Assembly (NCBI GenBank): GCA_937960595.1
Contig: CALGPL010000024.1
Coordinates: 1 to 64,000 of the forward strand
DNA from: an uncultured Anaerolineales bacterium
GTDB taxonomy: Bacteria; Chloroflexota; Anaerolineae; Anaerolineales; Villigracilaceae
Length of the DNA: 64,000 nucleotides
Reading direction: 5' to 3'
The notes under the pieces were generated by a model. That model did not search any database, was not told the origin of the DNA, and saw only the letters and a list, made by a program, of their open reading frames with translations. The position numbers and the translations under genes are program-made. Positions 1-10,459 of this stretch are shown in pieces (the first letter of the stretch is position 1; each line of letters starts with the position of its first letter).

Positions 1-144
1 GCCGGGGCAGTGCTCTTCCCGCCCATCCCGGCCTTCTACGGCGGCCCGCAGACGGTGGACGACCTGGTCACGGCCCTGGCCGGGCGGATGCTGCTGCGGC
101 TGGGAATCGAAAACGACGCCTATCCGCGCTGGGGAGGGGAATAG
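1..144 (+). CDS. ubiX: UbiX-type flavin prenyltransferase, C-terminal end (partial)
   Basis: The open frame enters from the left edge and stops at 142-144. The visible 47 residues contain FPPIPAFYGGPQTVDDLV followed by AGRMLLRLGIEND. This is the characteristic C-terminus of UbiX/Pad1 flavin prenyltransferases (P-x-P-A-F-Y, then TxDDxV, then R-x-L-x-x-LGI). The family makes prenylated FMN for UbiD-type decarboxylases. Only the tail is present, so active-site residues cannot be checked and a ubiD partner would have to lie outside the window. Confidence 0.72.
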   Translation, partial: AGAVLFPPIPAFYGGPQTVDDLVTALAGRMLLRLGIENDAYPRWGGE

Positions 145-286
145 GCGCCGGGGTCGAGATAGGTCTTGCCCGCCACTGGGCCGCGGAGGGCGCGGCCGAT
201 CCTTCGCGGGGCATGTCCTTCAGCGGGTAGCCGTGCGCGCCGGCGCGCAGCAGGCGGACGATGTCGCTCTTGGTGCGGAGGATCAC
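145..286 (-). pseudogene. Frameshifted remnant of a NarL/FixJ-type response regulator receiver domain
   Basis: Reading the minus strand from 286, one frame gives SDIVRLLRAGAHGYPLKDMPRE. This matches the end of receiver domains of LuxR-type regulators (RAGAxGYLLKDxPRE). The frame then degenerates, but a second frame about 40 bases further on gives VAGKTYLDPGA, the next conserved stretch of the same family. Two consecutive pieces of one domain in two frames indicate a decayed gene. Its phosphoacceptor part and DNA-binding domain are missing. The remnant abuts the ubiX stop codon. Confidence 0.6.
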
Positions 287-349
287 GCCTTTATCATATC
301 ACGGACGAGGGCGGTGTCGCCTGCTGCTTGCCATCCTCTTTGGCCTTTC

Positions 350-427
350 CCCATGACAGCCGTCATGGGTGGAAGGCGAAAATCGTGACCGGCGGCACTT
401 CGGCAGTTACAGCCGAAGGAGTAGAAT
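350..427 (+). promoter_or_regulatory. Two short hairpins and a possible -10 upstream of the glycosyltransferase gene
   Basis: The 287-460 gap holds no convincing gene. It contains an 8-bp perfect stem (350-357 with 362-369, 4-base loop) and a 7-bp perfect stem (398-404 with 412-418). TAGAAT at 422-427 follows directly and could be a -10 box for the gene at 461; no good -35 is seen. The first hairpin lacks a T-tract. Confidence 0.3.
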
Positions 428-460: not shown

Positions 461-3052
461 ATGACCGATTTGACCTCCACTCAACCTCCTGCCCTGCGAC
501 TCTCCTGGCTCGAACGTCCCCTCTGGAAGCGTCTGACCCCGGCCGGGCTGCTCGTGCTGGCGATCATGCTGCTTTCGGCCTTCCTGCACTTCTACAACAT
601 CACGGCCATCGGCGATTCGAACGCTTACTATACGGCGGCGGTCAAGTCCATGCTGCAATCCTGGCACAACTTCTTCTTCGTCGCCGCCGAGCCGGGCGGG
701 TCGGTGACGGTGGACAAGCCGCCGCTCGGCCTGTGGATCGAGGCGGCCTTCGCTTTCGTGCTGGGCGTGAGCGGATTTTCGGTCAGCCTGCCGAACATCC
801 TGGCCGGCATTTTCAGCATTCCGCTGCTCTATCGCCTGGTCAAAAAGCACCTCGGCGCGCTGGCCGGGCTGATCGCCGCCCTGGTCTTGGCCCTTACCCC
901 GACCGTGATCGGCACCGACCGCAACAGCACCATGGACGGGATGCTGGTCTTCTTCCTCCTGCTGGCGGCTTGGGCTTTCATCCGGGCAACCGAGTCGGGC
1001 GGGTTGCGCTGGCTTCTATTGGGCGCTTTCCTGCTTGGCCTGGGCTTCAATATCAAAATGTTGCAGGCTTTCCTGCCGCTGCCGGCTTTCTATGCCCTGT
1101 ATTTCCTGGGGGCAAAGAGGAAAGGGTGGCAGAAAATCGTCCATCTGGCCGCGGCGACCGTCTTGCTGCTGGTCGTTTCGCTCTCCTGGGCGGTCGCCGT
1201 GGACCTGACGCCGCCCGATGCGCGCCCCTACGTGGGCAGCAGCACCGACAACACGGTCACCGAACTGATCCTCGGCCACAACGGCCTGAACCGTCTCCTC
1301 GGCGGGATGCGCCGCGGCGGGGGCAATGCTCCGGCGATGAATCCACCCCAGGGTCCGCCTCTGCAGGCGCCCCAGGGCGGACCTCCGCCGCAGGCAGTCG
1401 AGGCCTGCCGGGGTCTCTCGGCCGGCGAGGCCTGCGTCATCCGCCTGCCCAACGGGGAAAGCGACTCGGGCGTCTGCACTCAGGTTCAGGGGGCGCTGGC
1501 CTGCGTCACGGCCGGGGCGCCGCAGCCGCGAGGGCCGGTTGCCGCTCAGGCCGATCCACGCGCCGCCCAATTCAGTCCAAACGGCGGGACGCCTTTTTCC
1601 GGCGAAGTTGGCACCCCTTCGGTCATTCGTCTCTTCATCCCGCCGCTGGCAAAGGAGGTCAGTTGGCTGCTGCCCTTTGCCCTGATCAGCCTGCTTTTGC
1701 TGGCGTTTGCCTTCCGCCTGGACTGGCCGCTCGGCGCGGCGCATCAGGCGTTGGTCTTGTGGGGCGGCTGGCTGCTGACCTGCATCGTCTTCTTCAGCGT
1801 GGCCGAGTTCTTTCATGATTACTACATGATCATGCTCGCTGCGCCGCTGGCCGCGGTGGTCGGCGGCGGGGTGAATCTCTTGTGGCAGAGGCGCGCCCAC
1901 GGCTGGAGCGACTGGGTTCTGGCGCTGGCAGCGGGGGTTACGCTGGCCCTGGAATGGTGGCTGGCCGTCCAGTTCGGGCAGGACGCCGGGTGGCTGCGCC
2001 TGGCGGCGGTTCTGCTGGCGGCCGGAACGGCGGCGCTTCTTGCGGCACGGCGCATGACCTGGCGGGTCGTCCGGCCCCTGGCCTATGTCCTGATTCTCGC
2101 CGCGCTGCTGGTCACGCCCCTGGCCTGGTCGGTGCTGACGGTGGCCGAGCAAAGCCCGGATGTCAACCTGCCCGGTGCCTACGGCGGACAAGTCGTCGGC
2201 GCGCCCCGCGCCCCGGCCGGTCGTCCTGGCCCGAACCGCGCCGCTGCCGACGCCGCCTTGCTGGATTATTTGCAGGCCAACACGCAGGGGATCGAATACC
2301 TGGTGGCCGTGCCGAATGCCCAGAGCGGCGCGCCGTTCGTCCTGGCGACCGGCCGCCCGGTGCTGTACCTGGGCGGCTTCAGCGGCGGCGACCCGGTCAT
2401 CGACGCGGCGGGGCTAGAGAGGATGGTGGCGGAGGGCCGTTTGCGCTTCCTTCTCGTTCCTGGCGATCGCGGCCCCAACCAGGACATTGCCCGCTGGGTG
2501 GAAGCGAACTGCGCCGTCGTGCCGCCTTTCAGCCAGGGCGGGCAGGTGTTGTACGATTGTCATAGCGAGAGGCCCTCTTCTCCTGCGGCCGGTGGAAATG
2601 CGCTGTCAGCGGGGGAGGCGAGAAATCCCCCGCCAGAAGCGCTGGCCGCCTGCCAGGGGCTTTCCCTCCGGCAAGCCTGCAGCATGAACCTGCCGAACGG
2701 CGAACGCGTCCATGGGATTTGTCAGGATGTTCAGGGTCAACTGGTCTGTCAGCCAGACGGCCCCGGCCCGCAAGCCCTGGCCGCCTGCGACAGCCTGACG
2801 GTCGGCGCCGCCTGCACCTTCGCCCGCCCGGACGGGACGATCGCCCAGGGCGCCTGCGGCCCGGTCGAAGACCGCTTGGCCTGTCTGGTCGGCGGGCCGC
2901 CGCCGCAGGCGGTCGAGGCCTGCGCCGCCCTGAGCGACAACGCCGCCTGTACGTTTACGGGGCGCGAGGGGAACAAGGTCACCGGCGTCTGCTTGCTGCG
3001 CCAGGACCAACTGGTCTGTGTCCCGCCGGCCGCTCCGGCTGGAACCCCCTGA
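461..3052 (+). CDS. GT39/ArnT-like membrane glycosyltransferase with four-cysteine modules
   Basis: 863 residues, start supported by AGAGGAA upstream. The N-terminal ~270 residues form a polytopic membrane domain resembling YkcB/ArnT/PMT (GT39 clan) enzymes: a first extracytoplasmic loop with GDSNAYYTAAVKSML, then VDKPPLGLWIEAAFAF and TDRNSTMDG. A second membrane block covers about residues 400-560, followed by a soluble domain to about 695. Such enzymes move a sugar from a polyprenyl-phosphate carrier to a protein or envelope glycan outside the membrane. Unusually, a 45-residue module with the exact spacing C-x8-C-x13-C-x8-C occurs once in the loop near residues 310-352 and three times in tandem at about 724-862. 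Acceptor and donor are unknown. The cysteine module could bind substrate or cell-wall material; this is inference. Confidence 0.82.
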   Translation: MTDLTSTQPPALRLSWLERPLWKRLTPAGLLVLAIMLLSAFLHFYNITAIGDSNAYYTAAVKSMLQSWHNFFFVAAEPGGSVTVDKPPLGLWIEAAFAFVLGVSGFSVSLPNILAGIFSIPLLYRLVKKHLGALAGLIAALVLALTPTVIGTDRNSTMDGMLVFFLLLAAWAFIRATESGGLRWLLLGAFLLGLGFNIKMLQAFLPLPAFYALYFLGAKRKGWQKIVHLAAATVLLLVVSLSWAVAVDLTPPDARPYVGSSTDNTVTELILGHNGLNRLLGGMRRGGGNAPAMNPPQGPPLQAPQGGPPPQAVEACRGLSAGEACVIRLPNGESDSGVCTQVQGALACVTAGAPQPRGPVAAQADPRAAQFSPNGGTPFSGEVGTPSVIRLFIPPLAKEVSWLLPFALISLLLLAFAFRLDWPLGAAHQALVLWGGWLLTCIVFFSVAEFFHDYYMIMLAAPLAAVVGGGVNLLWQRRAHGWSDWVLALAAGVTLALEWWLAVQFGQDAGWLRLAAVLLAAGTAALLAARRMTWRVVRPLAYVLILAALLVTPLAWSVLTVAEQSPDVNLPGAYGGQVVGAPRAPAGRPGPNRAAADAALLDYLQANTQGIEYLVAVPNAQSGAPFVLATGRPVLYLGGFSGGDPVIDAAGLERMVAEGRLRFLLVPGDRGPNQDIARWVEANCAVVPPFSQGGQVLYDCHSERPSSPAAGGNALSAGEARNPPPEALAACQGLSLRQACSMNLPNGERVHGICQDVQGQLVCQPDGPGPQALAACDSLTVGAACTFARPDGTIAQGACGPVEDRLACLVGGPPPQAVEACAALSDNAACTFTGREGNKVTGVCLLRQDQLVCVPPAAPAGTP
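2632..3043 (+). repeat. Three tandem four-cysteine modules encoded in the glycosyltransferase C-terminus
   Basis: Each ~45-codon module begins with a Pro-rich stretch and follows C-x8-C-x13-C-x8-C. Common features are an A-C-x-x-L start, a P/R-x-G turn before the third Cys and L-V/A-C at the end. A fourth copy lies at 1388-1516 in the same gene. The DNA of the copies has diverged, so these are protein-level repeats and not a recent duplication. Confidence 0.85.
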
Positions 3053-4552: not shown

Positions 4553-5572
4553 TTAGTCAGGCGTTCCCATCAGGTTCAGCACCGCCGCGCCGGTCAGTTG
4601 GCCGCTCCGCAGACGATTCAGGGCCTCGTTTGCCGCCTCGAGGGGAAAAACCTGCACCTCGGCGCGCACCGGCACGCGGGGAGCGATGGCAAAGAATTCC
4701 TCGCCGTCGCGGCGGGTCAGATTGGCCACCGAGCGGACGACGCGCTCCTCCCACAGCAGGGCGTAGGGGAAGGAGGGGATGTCGCTCATGTGGATGCCGC
4801 CGCAGACGACGACCCCGCCCGGGCGGACGCGCTTGAGCGCCTCGACCACCAACGGCCCGACCGGGGCGAAGATCAGGGCGGCGTCGAGCGGTTCGGGCGG
4901 GGCGACGGTCGAATCGCCGGCCCAGTCGGCGCCGTGGCGGCGGGCAAATTCCTGGGCGGCGGCGTCGCCCGGACGGGTGAAGGCAAAGATGCGCTTGCCC
5001 TCGTAACGGGCCACCTGGGCGATCAGATGCGCCGCCGCGCCGAAACCGTAGATGCCCAGCCGTTCGACCTGCTCGCCGGCCATGCGGTAGGTGCGGTAAC
5101 CGATCAGGCCGGCGCATAGCAGGGGTGCGGCCTCCGCGTCCTCATACAAGTCGGGGAGGGGGAAACAAAAACGCTCGTCGGCGACGGTGTATTCAGCGAA
5201 GCCGCCGTCCAGATCATAGCCGGTGAATTTGGCCCGAGGGCACAAATTCTCCTGGCCGCGGCGGCAGGCGGGGCAGTCGCCGTCCACCCAGCCCAGCCAG
5301 GGCACGCCGACCCGCTGCCCCGGCCGGAAATGGACTCCGGCCGAGACGACCGTCCCGACGATTTGGTGGCCCAGGATGAGCGGCAGTTTCGGCTTGGTCA
5401 GTTCGCCGTCCACGATGTGCAGGTCGGTGTGGCAGACGCCGCAGGCGTGGACTTTGATCAGCACTTGGCCCGGGCCGGGCTGCGGCACGGGGACTTCGGC
5501 CAGGCGCAGGGGGGCCTGCGGGGCGTCGAGCAGCATGGCCCGCATGGTGGAAGGAAGAGGTTTGCTGTCCAT
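4553..5572 (-). CDS. Zinc-dependent alcohol dehydrogenase (MDR superfamily)
   Basis: 339 residues from the ATG at 5572 (GGAG 8 bases upstream; a GTG six bases earlier is less well placed). The N-terminal catalytic domain has ACGVCHTDLHIVDGEL for the catalytic Zn, LGHQIVGTV where most relatives have GHE, and the structural-Zn cluster CPACRRGQENLC. The nucleotide-binding part has GIYGFGAAAHL, a glycine-rich turn. It likely oxidises or reduces a small alcohol/aldehyde with NAD(P). The context (M23 peptidase upstream, bactofilin-like protein downstream) gives no substrate clue. Confidence 0.85.
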   Translation of the reverse strand: MDSKPLPSTMRAMLLDAPQAPLRLAEVPVPQPGPGQVLIKVHACGVCHTDLHIVDGELTKPKLPLILGHQIVGTVVSAGVHFRPGQRVGVPWLGWVDGDCPACRRGQENLCPRAKFTGYDLDGGFAEYTVADERFCFPLPDLYEDAEAAPLLCAGLIGYRTYRMAGEQVERLGIYGFGAAAHLIAQVARYEGKRIFAFTRPGDAAAQEFARRHGADWAGDSTVAPPEPLDAALIFAPVGPLVVEALKRVRPGGVVVCGGIHMSDIPSFPYALLWEERVVRSVANLTRRDGEEFFAIAPRVPVRAEVQVFPLEAANEALNRLRSGQLTGAAVLNLMGTPD

Positions 5573-5608
5573 GATCACAACTCCGACCGGTTTGGTTTCT
5601 CTCGGCTC

Positions 5609-6316
5609 TCACGGCGTGGGCGTCAGCACCGACAGGTCGGGGGTGACGTTGCGGCCCGCCAGCCAGAGCAGCAGGTAGGGATAGGGGTTGATCTCGCCGC
5701 GGCGGGTCTGCCAATCTTCGGGGTAGGTGGGGTGCGAGATGCCGAAGTGCAGGTGCGGGAGCGTCCCGGCGGCGTTGCCGCTCATCCCCACCCAGCCCAG
5801 GAATTGACCGGCTGCGACGCGCGCCCCGCGGCGGATGGGGGTGTCGAGGGCGTACAGGTGCGAGCCGTAGTAGCGCACGCCGTCGTCGCCGAGGATGGCT
5901 ACGCTGATGCCGCCGCGCAGGGCGGGGTCATCGTTGAACGGGTCCCACAAGTCTTCGGGCTGGACGAAGTCCACCACGCCGCTTGTCGGGGCGACGAAGC
6001 GGCAGCAGCCCTCGACCTCGGCCTGGATGAAAATGTCGATCGCGCCGTAGGGGTGGCCGCCCTGGCTGAAGCCGGTCAGGGCCGCCGGCTGGACGGGGAA
6101 AACGTAGGTGTAAGGGTTGGGCGTTTCGGTGGGGCTGGGCGTCGGGGAGGGCGTCTCGCTCGGCGGCAAGGGAGGCGGCGTCTCGGAGGGCAGGAGGGGC
6201 GAGGGGGCGGGGGTTGGACTGACGGCTGCGGTCGCGGCGAGGGGCGGCGCGGCAGAGGCGGGCCGGCAGGCGGACAGGCCGATCAGGAGCAGGCCGATCC
6301 AGCCGGCGGCTTTCAT
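5609..6316 (-). CDS. M23 (LytM-like) peptidase lipoprotein
   Basis: 235 residues. A lipobox-like LSAC at residues 14-17 follows a short hydrophobic stretch, then a Pro/Thr/Ser-rich linker to about residue 67. The peptidase domain shows HPYGAIDIF (first His and Asp ligands), GVRYYGSHLYALD, the GARVAAGQFLGWVGMSG segment and PHLHFG (H-x-H ligand). These are the metal ligands of M23 endopeptidases, so an active Zn enzyme acting on peptidoglycan or another glycine-containing envelope peptide is likely. It overlaps the upstream small gene by 4 bases (ATGA), implying co-translation. Confidence 0.85.
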   Translation of the reverse strand: MKAAGWIGLLLIGLSACRPASAAPPLAATAAVSPTPAPSPLLPSETPPPLPPSETPSPTPSPTETPNPYTYVFPVQPAALTGFSQGGHPYGAIDIFIQAEVEGCCRFVAPTSGVVDFVQPEDLWDPFNDDPALRGGISVAILGDDGVRYYGSHLYALDTPIRRGARVAAGQFLGWVGMSGNAAGTLPHLHFGISHPTYPEDWQTRRGEINPYPYLLLWLAGRNVTPDLSVLTPTP

Positions 6317-6561
6317 GGGCGCCTCCGCAGCGCCTCCAGGTCGGGGATTTCCTGGGCGGCGGCGCGCAGAATGTCGAAGGCGCGCTGGATGAGCGGCTCC
6401 AGCCGGGCGGCGGAGATCGGTTCGCCGGCCTCGGCCGCTTCCAGCACTTTGAGCAGGTTGCCGCGCAGACCGCTGGCCCGCCGCGCCCAGCGCGAATCGA
6501 CCGAAAGCCGCTCGAGGCGGGCAGTCAGGCGGCGCAGAAGTTCGAGTTGGGCGGCATGCAC
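6313..6561 (-). CDS. Small helical protein of unknown function
   Basis: 82 residues, rich in Leu, Arg, Ala and Glu, predicted all-helical (LERLSVDSRWARRASGLRGNLL and ISAARLEPLIQRAFDILRAA). No signal peptide, no recognisable motif. It ends in a 4-base overlap with the M23 peptidase gene and starts 34 bases after glmS, so it is probably part of that transcript. The overlap is the best evidence that it is real. Confidence 0.5.
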   Translation of the reverse strand: MHAAQLELLRRLTARLERLSVDSRWARRASGLRGNLLKVLEAAEAGEPISAARLEPLIQRAFDILRAAAQEIPDLEALRRRP

Positions 6562-6595
6562 GTGGATATTATACCGGATGCCGATTCCGGCCGCA

Positions 6596-8383
6596 TCAAT
6601 CTACCGTCAGGGTCTTGGACAGGTTGCGCGGGAAATCCGGATCGTAGCCGCGCAGGACGCTCATGTGGTAGGAGAGCAGTTGCAGCGGCAGGACGGTCAG
6701 GAGGGCCGAGAGCTCCGGGGCGGCGTCGGGGAGGGGAATCACCTCGCTGGCGTTGGCGCGCAGGCGCGGGTCGTCTGGGCCGATGGCGATGGCGCGCGCC
6801 CCGCGGCAGGTCACCTCGTTGATGCCGCTGACGATCAGCGGGACATCCTGGGACGGGACGGCGAACAGGATCGGGTAGTCCTGGGTCACTGCCGAGAGCG
6901 GCCCGTGCTTGAATTCGGTCGAGAGCATTCCCTCGCAGTGGGCGTAGGTGATTTCCTTGAGTTTTAGCGCGCCCTCGAGCGCCATCGGGTAGGTCGCCCC
7001 GTAGCCGAGACAGTACATGTCGTTCCATTCGTTGATTTTCGCGGCCAGCGTCTCCACTGCCGGGGCGGTCATTTCCAGCGTGCGGTCCATCAGGTCGGGG
7101 AGGATTGCCAGGGCGGCGGGGTCGCGTCCGGCCAGGCGATAGGCCAGGTAGAGGAAGGTCAGCACCTGGTTGGTGAAGGTCTTGGTGGCCGGGACGGAGA
7201 TTTCGTAGCCGCAGCAGAGCGGCAGGGTGCAGGCGGCGGCTTTGGTCAGGGTCGAGCCGATCACGTTGGCCAGGCCGAAGCAGGTCATGCCGCGCTTTTC
7301 GGCTGCTTCCAGGGCGTTGAGCACGTCTTTGGTTTCGCCCGACTGGCTGACGAAAATTCCCACGTCCTCGTGGTTGACGGCCGGCGCGTACTGCGGCATG
7401 AACTGCGGAGCGATGACGGGGATGACGGCCCGGCTGGCCAGTTGGGCAAAATAGACCGCCCCGGCCAGACAGGCGTGGTAACTCGTCCCGCAGCCGATGA
7501 AGTAGAGGTGACGCGCCGTGCGCGCCTTTTCGAGCACGGTCTCAACCTGCGGGCTGCTCTCCAGCATGTGGAGCAGTTCGCGCCCCACCTGGCTCTGTTC
7601 GTGGATTTCCTTGAGCATGAAGTGCGGATAGCCGCCCTTCTGGACGGCATCCATGCTCTCGGTGACGGTCTCCGGTTCGCGGGTCAGGAGCGAGCCGTCT
7701 TGGACCGACCGCAGTTCGATGTGATCGGCCCACAGGGTGACGATCTCGCCGTCGTTGAGGCGCACGATGGTGCGGGTCAGCGGGAGGATCGAGGGCAGAT
7801 CGGACGAGACGCAGGTGAAGCCCTCGCCGAGGCCGGCCACCAGGCCGGAGCCTTTCTTGAAGGCGTAGAGTTTGTCGTCGTTGACGCGCCCGATGACGAA
7901 GGCGTAATCGCCCTGCAGGTCGCCGTAGGCCAGGCGGATGGCGTCGATGAAGTCGTAGCCTTTGTTGAGGTAACGTTCGACGGCATGGACGCAGGACTCG
8001 CCGTCGTTCTGCGAGCGGACGGTCAGGCCCTCGGCGATGAATTGCCGGCGCAGTTCGACGTTGTTGACCACGTTGCCGTTGTGGGCGCCGACCAGGTCGC
8101 CGTCCGAGTCGAGATGCGGCTGGGCGTTGACCTGGGAGGGTTCGCCGAAGGTCGCCCAGCGCAGTTGGGTGATGCCGCGCGAGCCGGTCATCTCGGCGAA
8201 GTGGTATTTGGCGGCCACCTCTTCGACCTTGCCGACGTCCTTGCGCAGGTCAATTTTGGAGCCAGAAATGGTCGCCGCGCCGACCGAATCGTAGCCGCGG
8301 TAGGTGAGGCGCTTGGCAGCCTCGATGAGAATCGGGCCGAGGGGTTGTTCGTCTTGGGTCACGATGCCGAAGATGCCGCACAT
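6596..8383 (-). CDS. glmS: Glutamine-fructose-6-phosphate aminotransferase (isomerizing), divergent glutaminase domain
   Basis: 595 residues from the ATG at 8383, chosen because Cys2 of MCGIFGIV must be the N-terminal nucleophile; AGGAG lies upstream. The enzyme makes glucosamine-6-phosphate from fructose-6-phosphate and glutamine, the first step to UDP-GlcNAc. The glutaminase part (1-~240) keeps LTYRGYDS and HNGNVVNN, but RWATFGEP and NAQPH replace the usual WATHG and NAHPH. Two SIS domains follow (GCGTSYHACLAG, SQSGETKD, then LKLKEITYAHCEGMLSTEFKHGPL) and the usual C-terminus DPDFPRNLSKTLTVD. The leader is too short for a glmS ribozyme. Confidence 0.9.
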   Translation of the reverse strand: MCGIFGIVTQDEQPLGPILIEAAKRLTYRGYDSVGAATISGSKIDLRKDVGKVEEVAAKYHFAEMTGSRGITQLRWATFGEPSQVNAQPHLDSDGDLVGAHNGNVVNNVELRRQFIAEGLTVRSQNDGESCVHAVERYLNKGYDFIDAIRLAYGDLQGDYAFVIGRVNDDKLYAFKKGSGLVAGLGEGFTCVSSDLPSILPLTRTIVRLNDGEIVTLWADHIELRSVQDGSLLTREPETVTESMDAVQKGGYPHFMLKEIHEQSQVGRELLHMLESSPQVETVLEKARTARHLYFIGCGTSYHACLAGAVYFAQLASRAVIPVIAPQFMPQYAPAVNHEDVGIFVSQSGETKDVLNALEAAEKRGMTCFGLANVIGSTLTKAAACTLPLCCGYEISVPATKTFTNQVLTFLYLAYRLAGRDPAALAILPDLMDRTLEMTAPAVETLAAKINEWNDMYCLGYGATYPMALEGALKLKEITYAHCEGMLSTEFKHGPLSAVTQDYPILFAVPSQDVPLIVSGINEVTCRGARAIAIGPDDPRLRANASEVIPLPDAAPELSALLTVLPLQLLSYHMSVLRGYDPDFPRNLSKTLTVD

Positions 8384-8479
8384 AGTCGAGAGAGTCTCCT
8401 GTTCGATGGAATGGCAGGCCAAGTTTATCACAGGGGGCGATGAATCGAGGACGATCCTCGAGGCGACTTTTTTCGGCGC

Positions 8480-10459
8480 TTAGGGCGCGGTGAGCCTCTC
8501 TTCCAAGATTTCGAGCAGGTCGCGGGCCTGCATTTGGCCCGCCTGGCAGACGGTTTTGATGCCGTCCTCGAACATGGTCAGGCAGAAGGGGCAGTTGGAG
8601 ACGAGCAGGGGCGCGCCGGTTGCCTGGGCCATCTGGACGCGGGTCACGTTGATGCGGCTGCCGAGTTTCTCCTCGGCCAGGACGCGGCCGCCGCCTGCCC
8701 CGCAGCAGAAGCCGTCGTAGCCGGTCTGCGTCATCTCGCGGATTTGTCCGCCGGCGCGGCGCAGGAGGGTGCGCGGCGGCTCGAGGAGGTCGCAGTAACG
8801 GGCGAGGGTGCAGGAGTCGTGATAGGTGACCTCGAAGGTTTGGGGGCGGAGGGGCAGGCGGCCCTCTTCGGCCAGGCGCGCCAGGAAGGCGGCGGCGTGT
8901 TCGACCGGCAGGTCGAAGCCCAGGTCGCGGTAATCGCGGCTCAGGGTGTAGAAGCAGTGCGGACAGGCGGTCACGACCTGGCGCGCCCCACTGGCCCGAA
9001 TCTGAGCGATGTTCTCGGCCGCTTTGCGTTGGTAAAGGTCTTCGTTGCCCAGTTTGCGCAGCGGCTCGCCGCAGCAGGTCTCGGCGCTGCCGAGGATGGC
9101 CACCTTGAGGCCGGCGGCGCGGCACAGGCGGACGAAGGCGCGCGCCACGGCCTGGTTGCGTTTGTCGAAGGAGGCATAGCAGCCGACGAAGTAGAGCAGG
9201 TCGGCCTCGGCGGGCGGATGGAGTTCGAGGCCGGCGGCCCAGTCGCGGCGCGTGGCGGGGGGCAGGCCAAAGGGATTGCCGCTCGTTTCCAACTGGCGGA
9301 CGGCGGCGACGACCTCCGGCCCGGGGAATTCGCCGCGCATCAAGACCAGGGCGCGGCGCATTTCGAGGATTTTGTTGACATGCTCGATTTCGGCCGGGCA
9401 GATGTCTTGGCAGGCGCGGCAGGCGGTGCAGGCCCACAGCGCTTCGGGCGTGACGGTTTCGATCAGGTCGGCGGGCGAGGCGGCAAAGGCTGCCGCCCCC
9501 ACCTGCTGGACGATGCGCATCGGCGAGAGCGGCTTGCCGGTCGCCCAGGCCGGGCAGCGATCCTGACAGCGCTTGCAGGCCATGCAGGCGTCGGCGTCGT
9601 AGATGTCCTTCCAGGTCAGGTCGCTGACGGCTTCGGCGCCGAAGTGGTCCACGCCTTCGGCCTCCAGGTCGAGGGTGGGGAGGGCGCCTTTGGGGCGCAA
9701 ATCGCCGAGCCATGAGTTGAGCGGGGTGGTCAACAGGTGGCGCAGTTTGGTGAAGGGCAGGGCGGCGATCAGGCCCATGGCCAGGCCGAAGTGAATCCAC
9801 CACAGCCAGCGGTGGAGAGACAGCAGGGCAGGCGTTTCCAGGCCGGTCATCGTCAGGGCGGCCAGCCGCCCGACGGGCGAGAACCAGGCCAGAGCGGGGT
9901 CGGTGCGCAGTTCGGTGGCGGCCAGGCGGGCGCCTTCGATGAAGAAACCGGTCAACAGGATGGTGGCCAGGCCGAAATGGGCCAGGTAGTCATCGGGGAT
10001 GATTTCCAGCCCTTTGGGGCGGTAGACGAAGCGCCGCGCGCCGAGGCCGAAGAGGGTCAGCATGGCGATCAGGCCGCCCAGGTCGAGGGCCAGCGAGAAG
10101 AATTTGTAGAAGACGCCTCGCAGGAAGACGAGGTCGAAGAGCGGGGCGGTGAAATCGGCCTGGATCATGACCAGCAACGTGCCGATGAAGAGCGTCAACA
10201 TGCCCCAGAACAGAAAGGCGTGGGTGACGCCCGGCAGGCGGACGCGCATGACCCGCACCTGGCCGAGGAAGTTGCCAAGCATCCGACCCAGCCGGCGCAG
10301 CGACTGGTCGCGGCGGTCGAGTGGCTTTCCTTGCCGGTAGATGCGCAGCCGCCGGGCAAATCCGTAGAGGACGAGCAGGGCGGTCAGGGCGGCCAGCAGG
10401 TACAGGGGCAGCGCCGCGCCGTGGCCGATGTTCCAGTAGATTTCGCGAGTGGCGTCCAT
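8480..10459 (-). CDS. Membrane-bound FeS oxidoreductase (NarI-like + HdrD-like), probable ETF:menaquinone oxidoreductase
   Basis: 659 residues. The first ~250 contain about five or six membrane spans with histidines suited to b-haems, like nitrate reductase gamma subunits. Then come two ferredoxin clusters, CMACKRCQDRCP and CTACRACQDICP, and two CCG domains of the HdrD/GlpC type: CCGEPLRK with CPHCFYTL, and CCGAGGGR with CPFCLTMF. This architecture is the one described for EMO, the protein that passes electrons from electron-transfer flavoprotein to (methyl)menaquinone during beta-oxidation. etfBA lie 3 kb away on the same strand, which supports the role. It could instead serve a different flavoprotein dehydrogenase. 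Confidence 0.83.
   Translation of the reverse strand: MDATREIYWNIGHGAALPLYLLAALTALLVLYGFARRLRIYRQGKPLDRRDQSLRRLGRMLGNFLGQVRVMRVRLPGVTHAFLFWGMLTLFIGTLLVMIQADFTAPLFDLVFLRGVFYKFFSLALDLGGLIAMLTLFGLGARRFVYRPKGLEIIPDDYLAHFGLATILLTGFFIEGARLAATELRTDPALAWFSPVGRLAALTMTGLETPALLSLHRWLWWIHFGLAMGLIAALPFTKLRHLLTTPLNSWLGDLRPKGALPTLDLEAEGVDHFGAEAVSDLTWKDIYDADACMACKRCQDRCPAWATGKPLSPMRIVQQVGAAAFAASPADLIETVTPEALWACTACRACQDICPAEIEHVNKILEMRRALVLMRGEFPGPEVVAAVRQLETSGNPFGLPPATRRDWAAGLELHPPAEADLLYFVGCYASFDKRNQAVARAFVRLCRAAGLKVAILGSAETCCGEPLRKLGNEDLYQRKAAENIAQIRASGARQVVTACPHCFYTLSRDYRDLGFDLPVEHAAAFLARLAEEGRLPLRPQTFEVTYHDSCTLARYCDLLEPPRTLLRRAGGQIREMTQTGYDGFCCGAGGGRVLAEEKLGSRINVTRVQMAQATGAPLLVSNCPFCLTMFEDGIKTVCQAGQMQARDLLEILEERLTAP

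Follow-up and report, generated by a model that had tools for sequence, protein, structure and literature searches.

What is a four-cysteine segment, present in four copies, doing in a membrane glycosyltransferase of an uncultured Anaerolineales bacterium? The question arises in the first few kilobases of a 64-kb stretch of DNA (64,000 nucleotides, the whole of which is referred to here as the window), where a single gene encodes all four copies (Table 1). The product matches PMT_2 (PF13231; residues 85 to 243, E = 1.2e-30, 107.3 bits against a Pfam cut-off of 26.1) and YkcB_C (PF24878; residues 600 to 683, E = 1.4e-24, 86.2 bits against a cut-off of 27), and because both matches exceed the cut-offs, the protein is classified as a YkcB-type GT-C glycosyltransferase, in agreement with an earlier note on this DNA, which had proposed a GT39-type membrane enzyme.

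Table 1. Positions of the enzyme gene, its modules and domains, and the upstream remnants in the window
Feature	Positions	Strand	Details and basis
Remnants of NarL-type response regulator and histidine kinase	1..400	-	blastn to sister genome L051
YkcB-type GT39/GT-C glycosyltransferase gene	461..3052	+	open frame, 863 aa, no internal stops
Large loop, residues 248-399 (152 residues), predicted outside, carries module 1	1202..1657	+	hydropathy scan, alignment with relatives
Module 1	1385..1522	+	cysteines 1406-1504; from residue 316; pattern match, profile match
YkcB_C domain, with the tail of modules 2 to 4 downstream	2258..2509	+	Pfam PF24878
Module 2	2636..2764	+	cysteines 2651-2749; from residue 731; pattern match, profile match
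Module 3	2771..2899	+	cysteines 2786-2884; from residue 776; pattern match, profile match
Module 4	2906..3037	+	cysteines 2921-3019; from residue 821; pattern match, profile match

The four copies of C-x8-C-x13-C-x8-C that had been described, one in a loop and three in tandem at the C-terminus, are all present, with no extra cysteine inside any of them. They account for 16 of the 19 cysteines of the enzyme, and a six-frame search of the window found no further match to this pattern. When the enzyme sequence was shuffled, a single match appeared in 2 of 20,000 trials and more than one in none of 20,000. The tail modules follow each other at exactly 135 bp; nevertheless, the other copies share only 38 to 52% identity with the first, and the repeats are therefore considered diverged rather than products of a recent DNA duplication.

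The hydropathy scan of the enzyme returned 12 segments and missed at least one; a weak hydrophobic segment near residues 204 to 218 was counted by eye as an additional helix, and with this helix included, the large loop comes after the seventh transmembrane segment. Enzymes of this class are expected to have 8 to 13 transmembrane helices and a catalytic acid in an outer loop; acidic residues are present in the loop at residues 44 to 95. The basic loop at residues 219 to 228 would lie inside, so that, by the positive-inside rule, the loop with module 1 and the YkcB_C domain with its three-module tail should both be outside. The extracytoplasmic position of the modules claimed in the earlier note is thus backed by this reasoning and, furthermore, by the occurrence of the identical module type on exported proteins, many of which have a lipobox-like motif. 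Module 1 itself is embedded in a Pro/Gln/Gly-rich part of the large loop, and in three module-less relatives (L063, L155, and L158), the loop consists of low-complexity sequence only.

Strict spacing, which had been taken as a property of the module, turned out to be exact only in the window's protein. Across 87 modules, including the four of the window, the gaps between the cysteines vary: (8,13,10) in 34 modules, (8,12,10) in 22, (8,13,8) and (8,12,8) in 10 each, (8,8,10) in 6, and other combinations in 5. The spacing follows the host protein, with mostly 8-13-10 in the glycosyltransferases, 8-12-10 or 8-8-10 in YHYH proteins, and mostly 8-12-8 in LTXXQ proteins. Apart from the cysteines, the modules share a glycine two residues before C3 (87/87), a leucine two residues before C4 (81/87), and a proline two residues after C4 (82/87); a phenylalanine, valine, or isoleucine two residues after C2 and P-N-G ahead of C3 are also mostly kept.

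Neither a single module nor the tail matched any entry of Pfam, NCBIfam, or PHROGs over the cut-off. The best match among all catalogued domains, to the Paramecium surface antigen domain (PF01508), was taken as chance: it was obtained with the tail (E = 0.0052), scored 17.6 bits against a cut-off of 21.2, and covers 50 residues that span two modules. A sequence search of the PDB with the module produced nothing convincing, the best hit (E = 0.0046) being to RecA fusions and taken as a match of composition, and a search of the open-licence literature with a few terms found no description of the module. A model of one module, built by AlphaFold2 from the alignment of the window's four copies, reached a mean pLDDT of 88.6 and a pTM of 0.62 and consists of one helix and three strands. 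The tail, predicted from its single sequence, repeats this helix-and-strand pattern three times (pLDDT 81.5).

Of 152 genomes from the window's family, 76 contain the module according to a search with a 31-row alignment, and a profile made from the window's four copies (E ≤ 0.01) matched 29 of 101 genomes comprising the window's own genome and relatives, with two of these 29 matches (G021 and G052) doubtful. Among 400 genomes sampled across the phylum, 12 carry the module, and 11 of the 12 belong to the window's family. Outside the phylum, one small module protein each was found on Rhodobacterales plasmids of Paracoccus seriniphilus, Antarctobacter heliothermus, and Pacificitalea manganoxidans. 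The sole stretch detected by a DNA-pattern scan of genome contigs (L050) appears to fall within a long, unrelated frame of opposite sense and was counted as chance; therefore, the reach of the module beyond the window's phylum consists of the three plasmid records only. Phage origin was considered and rejected: tblastn found no match in phage records, scans of viral contigs with the enzyme and with a YHYH host found no relative, a viral structure library gave no E value below 0.08, and PHROGs gave no match.

To characterize the host proteins, 60 stretches were surveyed, with ORFs called by a simple script and module-free seeds used for the classes; module genes were recovered in 59 of them, and L167, where the ORF caller missed the module, was left out. 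The hosts in these 59 loci are YkcB-type glycosyltransferases (38), YHYH proteins (18), Lcl_C proteins (10), and LTXXQ proteins (6), along with two animal-type haem peroxidases, one arylsulfotransferase (ASST), and one FGE-sulfatase-like protein. Representatives of the classes were checked in Pfam, the LTXXQ representative scoring 22.5 bits, slightly below the cut-off of 24.3. The position of the module differs among the hosts. It is located at the C-end of all YHYH (18/18), Lcl_C (10/10), and peroxidase (2/2) proteins and within the first 120 residues of 4 of the 6 LTXXQ proteins and of the FGE protein, whereas among the 43 copies in glycosyltransferases other than that of the window, 42 lie internally and the remaining one at the C-end. 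Of the 40 non-glycosyltransferase module proteins, 30 have a lipobox-like motif, loosely defined and dependent on start codons assigned by script, close to the N-terminus, namely, YHYH (17/18), Lcl_C (6/10), LTXXQ (5/6), and peroxidase (2/2), with none in the ASST (0/1), FGE (0/1), and Rhodobacterales (0/2) proteins.

Several of these hosts have module-free counterparts. The two peroxidases (L150:6631-8565 and L151:3910-5859), with the module at the C-end, are bacterial proteins of the animal haem type (An_peroxidase, E ~1e-162), and akin peroxidases free of the module occur in the YHYH loci L132, L143, and L148. Similarly, a paralogous pair of LTXXQ/Metal_resist-like genes (L061:4662-6242 and 7929-9509) carries the module on one member only. 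In YHYH hosts, the module falls outside the Pfam match (PF14240), and in the window's family, 24 of the 25 genomes with an over-cut-off YHYH protein also have the module somewhere.

The suggestion of the earlier note that this might be a new extracellular domain, to be checked by its occurrence outside the glycosyltransferase family, is borne out to the extent that at least six other protein families (YHYH, Lcl_C, LTXXQ, peroxidase, arylsulfotransferase, and FGE-like) carry a module that has no catalogued match. We conclude that the module is a real, apparently uncatalogued, portable domain that is probably extracytoplasmic and probably stabilized by disulfides.

The genomic company of the module genes provides some indication of its role. 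A glycosyltransferase and a second module-bearing protein are encoded in one stretch in 12 of the 59 loci (with YHYH in 8, Lcl_C in 3, and LTXXQ in 1), and in 26 of the 38 YkcB-type module loci, the stretch shows no module gene besides that of the enzyme. YkcB_C is present in 63 of 76 module genomes versus 16 of 76 module-free genomes, a comparison that is partly circular given that most modules ride on the YkcB_C enzyme. Genomes with modules on non-glycosyltransferase proteins only still have YkcB_C in 11 of 20 cases versus the same 16 of 76 (P = 0.005, with no kinship correction); this list of 20 was made by hand, with G533 and G542 included and G497, G513, G547, and G554, which might contain truncated enzymes, left out. 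In 4 of these 11 genomes (e.g., L063, L155, and L158), the YkcB_C match lies 1.4 to 2.1 kb from the module, and in the other 9 of the 20, no YkcB_C gene was detected. GtrA-type genes adjoin several module glycosyltransferases, which fits a lipid-linked sugar pathway. Other PMT-type membrane enzymes (570 to 600 aa, with weak PMT_2 matches) are encoded near the module-bearing YkcB-type gene in L069:3831-7294 and 12 further loci, often in pairs. On the Antarctobacter plasmid (L071:2452-9220), genes for a kinase, a regulator, the small module protein, a di-haem oxidoreductase, a YHYH protein, and a patatin-like protein are consecutive.

We infer that the module, a portable domain of about 43 residues with two probable disulfides and a probable location outside the cell, most likely serves as a docking module around the YkcB-type glycosyltransferase; the docking role is put forward tentatively, at slightly below even confidence. 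Under this proposal, each module would fold independently into a short helix and a three-stranded sheet pinned by disulfides C1-C3 and C2-C4, and would act as a plug-in attached via Pro/Gln/Gly-rich linkers to the C-end, the N-terminal part, or an outer loop of exported proteins. The enzyme of the window would have one copy in an outer loop and three hanging from the C-terminal domain. The modules would dock the exported proteins of one envelope program together, or onto a shared partner, around the YkcB-type enzyme, and additional copies would increase avidity. The strongest hints are of two kinds. First, the module is fused to YHYH in the window's family, whereas in Antarctobacter, it is a separate small gene two genes away from the YHYH gene, a Rosetta-stone pattern that hints at association. 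Second, glycosyltransferases and module proteins are unfused neighbors in L063, L155, and L158. Conversely, the many YkcB-type loci that lack a second module gene, the nine genomes without YkcB_C, and the lack of detectable coevolution argue against docking. Specifically, the modules of glycosyltransferases and neighboring YHYH proteins in the same locus did not resemble each other more closely than re-paired modules do (P = 0.37; 9 loci, in one of which the "glycosyltransferase" module is that of a peroxidase), and hence no coevolution was seen; in the module identity and charge tests, peroxidases L150 and L151 and two Rhodobacterales proteins were still labeled GT39. The differences in spacing between host classes could also point to different jobs, which would count against docking.

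The rival readings rank in the order of glycan binding, acceptor function, a signaling role, and a passive spacer. Glycan binding, the idea of the earlier note, would have the module tether the enzyme and the other hosts to the polymer that the enzyme decorates. Its presence on a glycosyltransferase and on Lcl_C proteins, and the tandem repeats typical of binding modules, are consistent with such a function, but the usual aromatic platform for sugars is absent, with only 2 tryptophans and 4 tyrosines in the 87 flanked modules, and no connection with glycans is evident for the peroxidase, YHYH, and LTXXQ hosts. Among the structures compared, sugar-binding ficolin domains gave weak matches only (Z = 2.1 to 2.5), which speak neither for nor against glycan binding, and no known sugar-binding fold exceeded Z = 2.7, a result that excludes none of them. 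On balance, glycan binding appears unlikely.

Some eukaryotic O-glycosyltransferases glycosylate small disulfide domains, and the module could likewise be a folded acceptor to which the YkcB-type enzyme attaches sugar. Serine or threonine is common four residues after C1 (67/87) and one residue after C2 (73/87), and the excess of YkcB_C in genomes with modules only on other proteins points in the same direction. Nevertheless, this reading is quite doubtful: the enzyme carries the module itself, module 1 of the window lacks the serine or threonine after C2, and no YkcB_C gene was detected in 9 of the 20 genomes with modules on non-glycosyltransferase proteins only. A combined acceptor and docking domain, whereby carrying the module would tag exported proteins for sugar transfer by YkcB-type enzymes and the enzyme's own copies would regulate or present it, is an improbable extension, for which the EGF and TSR domains that tag eukaryotic proteins for sugar transfer provide the precedent. 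Few acceptors of YkcB-type enzymes are known.

Exported module proteins might, alternatively, be ligands or co-sensors of a neighboring kinase. In 39 of the 59 loci (30 of the 38 glycosyltransferase loci), the module gene has a kinase or regulator gene no more than three genes away, and such genes make up 55 of the 229 genes within two positions versus 14 of the 257 genes four or more positions away (odds ratio of 5.5, P = 3e-9, with no kinship correction). The module proteins in all three Rhodobacterales loci are also each encoded beside a kinase/regulator pair. However, two kinds of kinase are involved: most glycosyltransferase genes adjoin a HisKA_3 kinase and a LuxR-type regulator, and many of the other module genes adjoin a HisKA kinase and a second group of regulators, assigned by similarity only. 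Plain coregulation accounts for the neighborhood equally well. Moreover, most of the pair in the window has been lost, yet all four modules are retained. In the sister genome L051, an intact pair is located beside the enzyme gene (regulator at 4932-5573 and kinase at 5570-6862), and by blastn, positions 1-148 of the window correspond to 4767-4912 of L051, 146-250 to 5192-5297, and 237-699 to 6813-7279, leaving two gaps of ~280 bp and 1.5 kb relative to this pair. The contig starts at base 1 of the window, and misassembly may be the source of the fragmented pair. Taken together, these observations make a signaling role improbable.

The weakest reading, a passive spacer or protease-resistant cap with no specific partner, draws on the consistent placement of the module in low-complexity linkers or at protein ends and on the variation of tail copy number within the window's genus (none in L051, one in L052, and three in the window), but is highly improbable in view of the conserved noncysteine residues and the retention of the module on many unrelated hosts.

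It is mainly in eukaryotes that small disulfide domains shuffled among many exported proteins are familiar. A bacterial counterpart on glycosyltransferases, peroxidases, and lipoproteins of a single proposed envelope program offers a handle on surface organization in this lineage, and the module profile is a seed for annotating many otherwise nameless protein tails. Should the docking or the acceptor role be true, the module would provide a testable partner or substrate for YkcB-type enzymes.

Among solved structures, the closest to the module model is NFAP2, an antifungal protein of Neosartorya fischeri (PDB 8rp9), with Z = 6.0 and an rmsd of 1.7 over 42 of 47 residues, the next structure reaching Z = 2.7; the tail model also ranks NFAP2 first (Z = 5.5, rmsd of 2.4 over 43 residues, next 3.1), and both scores are in the range below 8, where Z may reflect a common arrangement only. 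Foldseek assigned the module-NFAP2 match a probability of 0.95 with a nonsignificant E value of 0.17. At the sequence level, the tie is weak: hhalign gave a probability of 7.9 over 17 columns, and 36 of 2,000 free shuffles and 53 of 2,000 shuffles with fixed cysteines scored as well as NFAP2. For this reason, the label "NFAP2-like predicted fold" is preferred over "NFAP2 family."

According to one published report, the disulfides of NFAP2 are Cys9-Cys40, Cys23-Cys49, and Cys11-Cys15, and the gamma-core is defined as GXC-X3-9-C (PMC10273333). All four modules of the window end in G-x-C-x8-C and thus share the gamma-core with NFAP2. The order of the four shared cysteines is also alike, such that C1-C3 and C2-C4 would match Cys9-Cys40 and Cys23-Cys49; by analogy with the NFAP2 fold, the model suggests this pairing, and two disulfides per module, as assumed in the earlier note, are plausible. 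There are also differences: the module has four cysteines versus six in three disulfides, is neutral to acidic (net charge of -2 to 0 from the first to the last cysteine in the window's copies) versus +5.2, and is part of large proteins, whereas NFAP2 is a free peptide. The charge and the large hosts led to the rejection of an antimicrobial peptide function despite the similar predicted fold. The enzyme, in turn, resembles the YkcB-type GT-C enzymes in its combination of PMT_2 and YkcB_C and in the GtrA-type neighbors of several relatives. Among 14 control genomes, YkcB_C was matched only in Bacillus subtilis, where YkcB is described as a predicted GT-C enzyme from an operon controlled by two-component regulators (PMC5836110).
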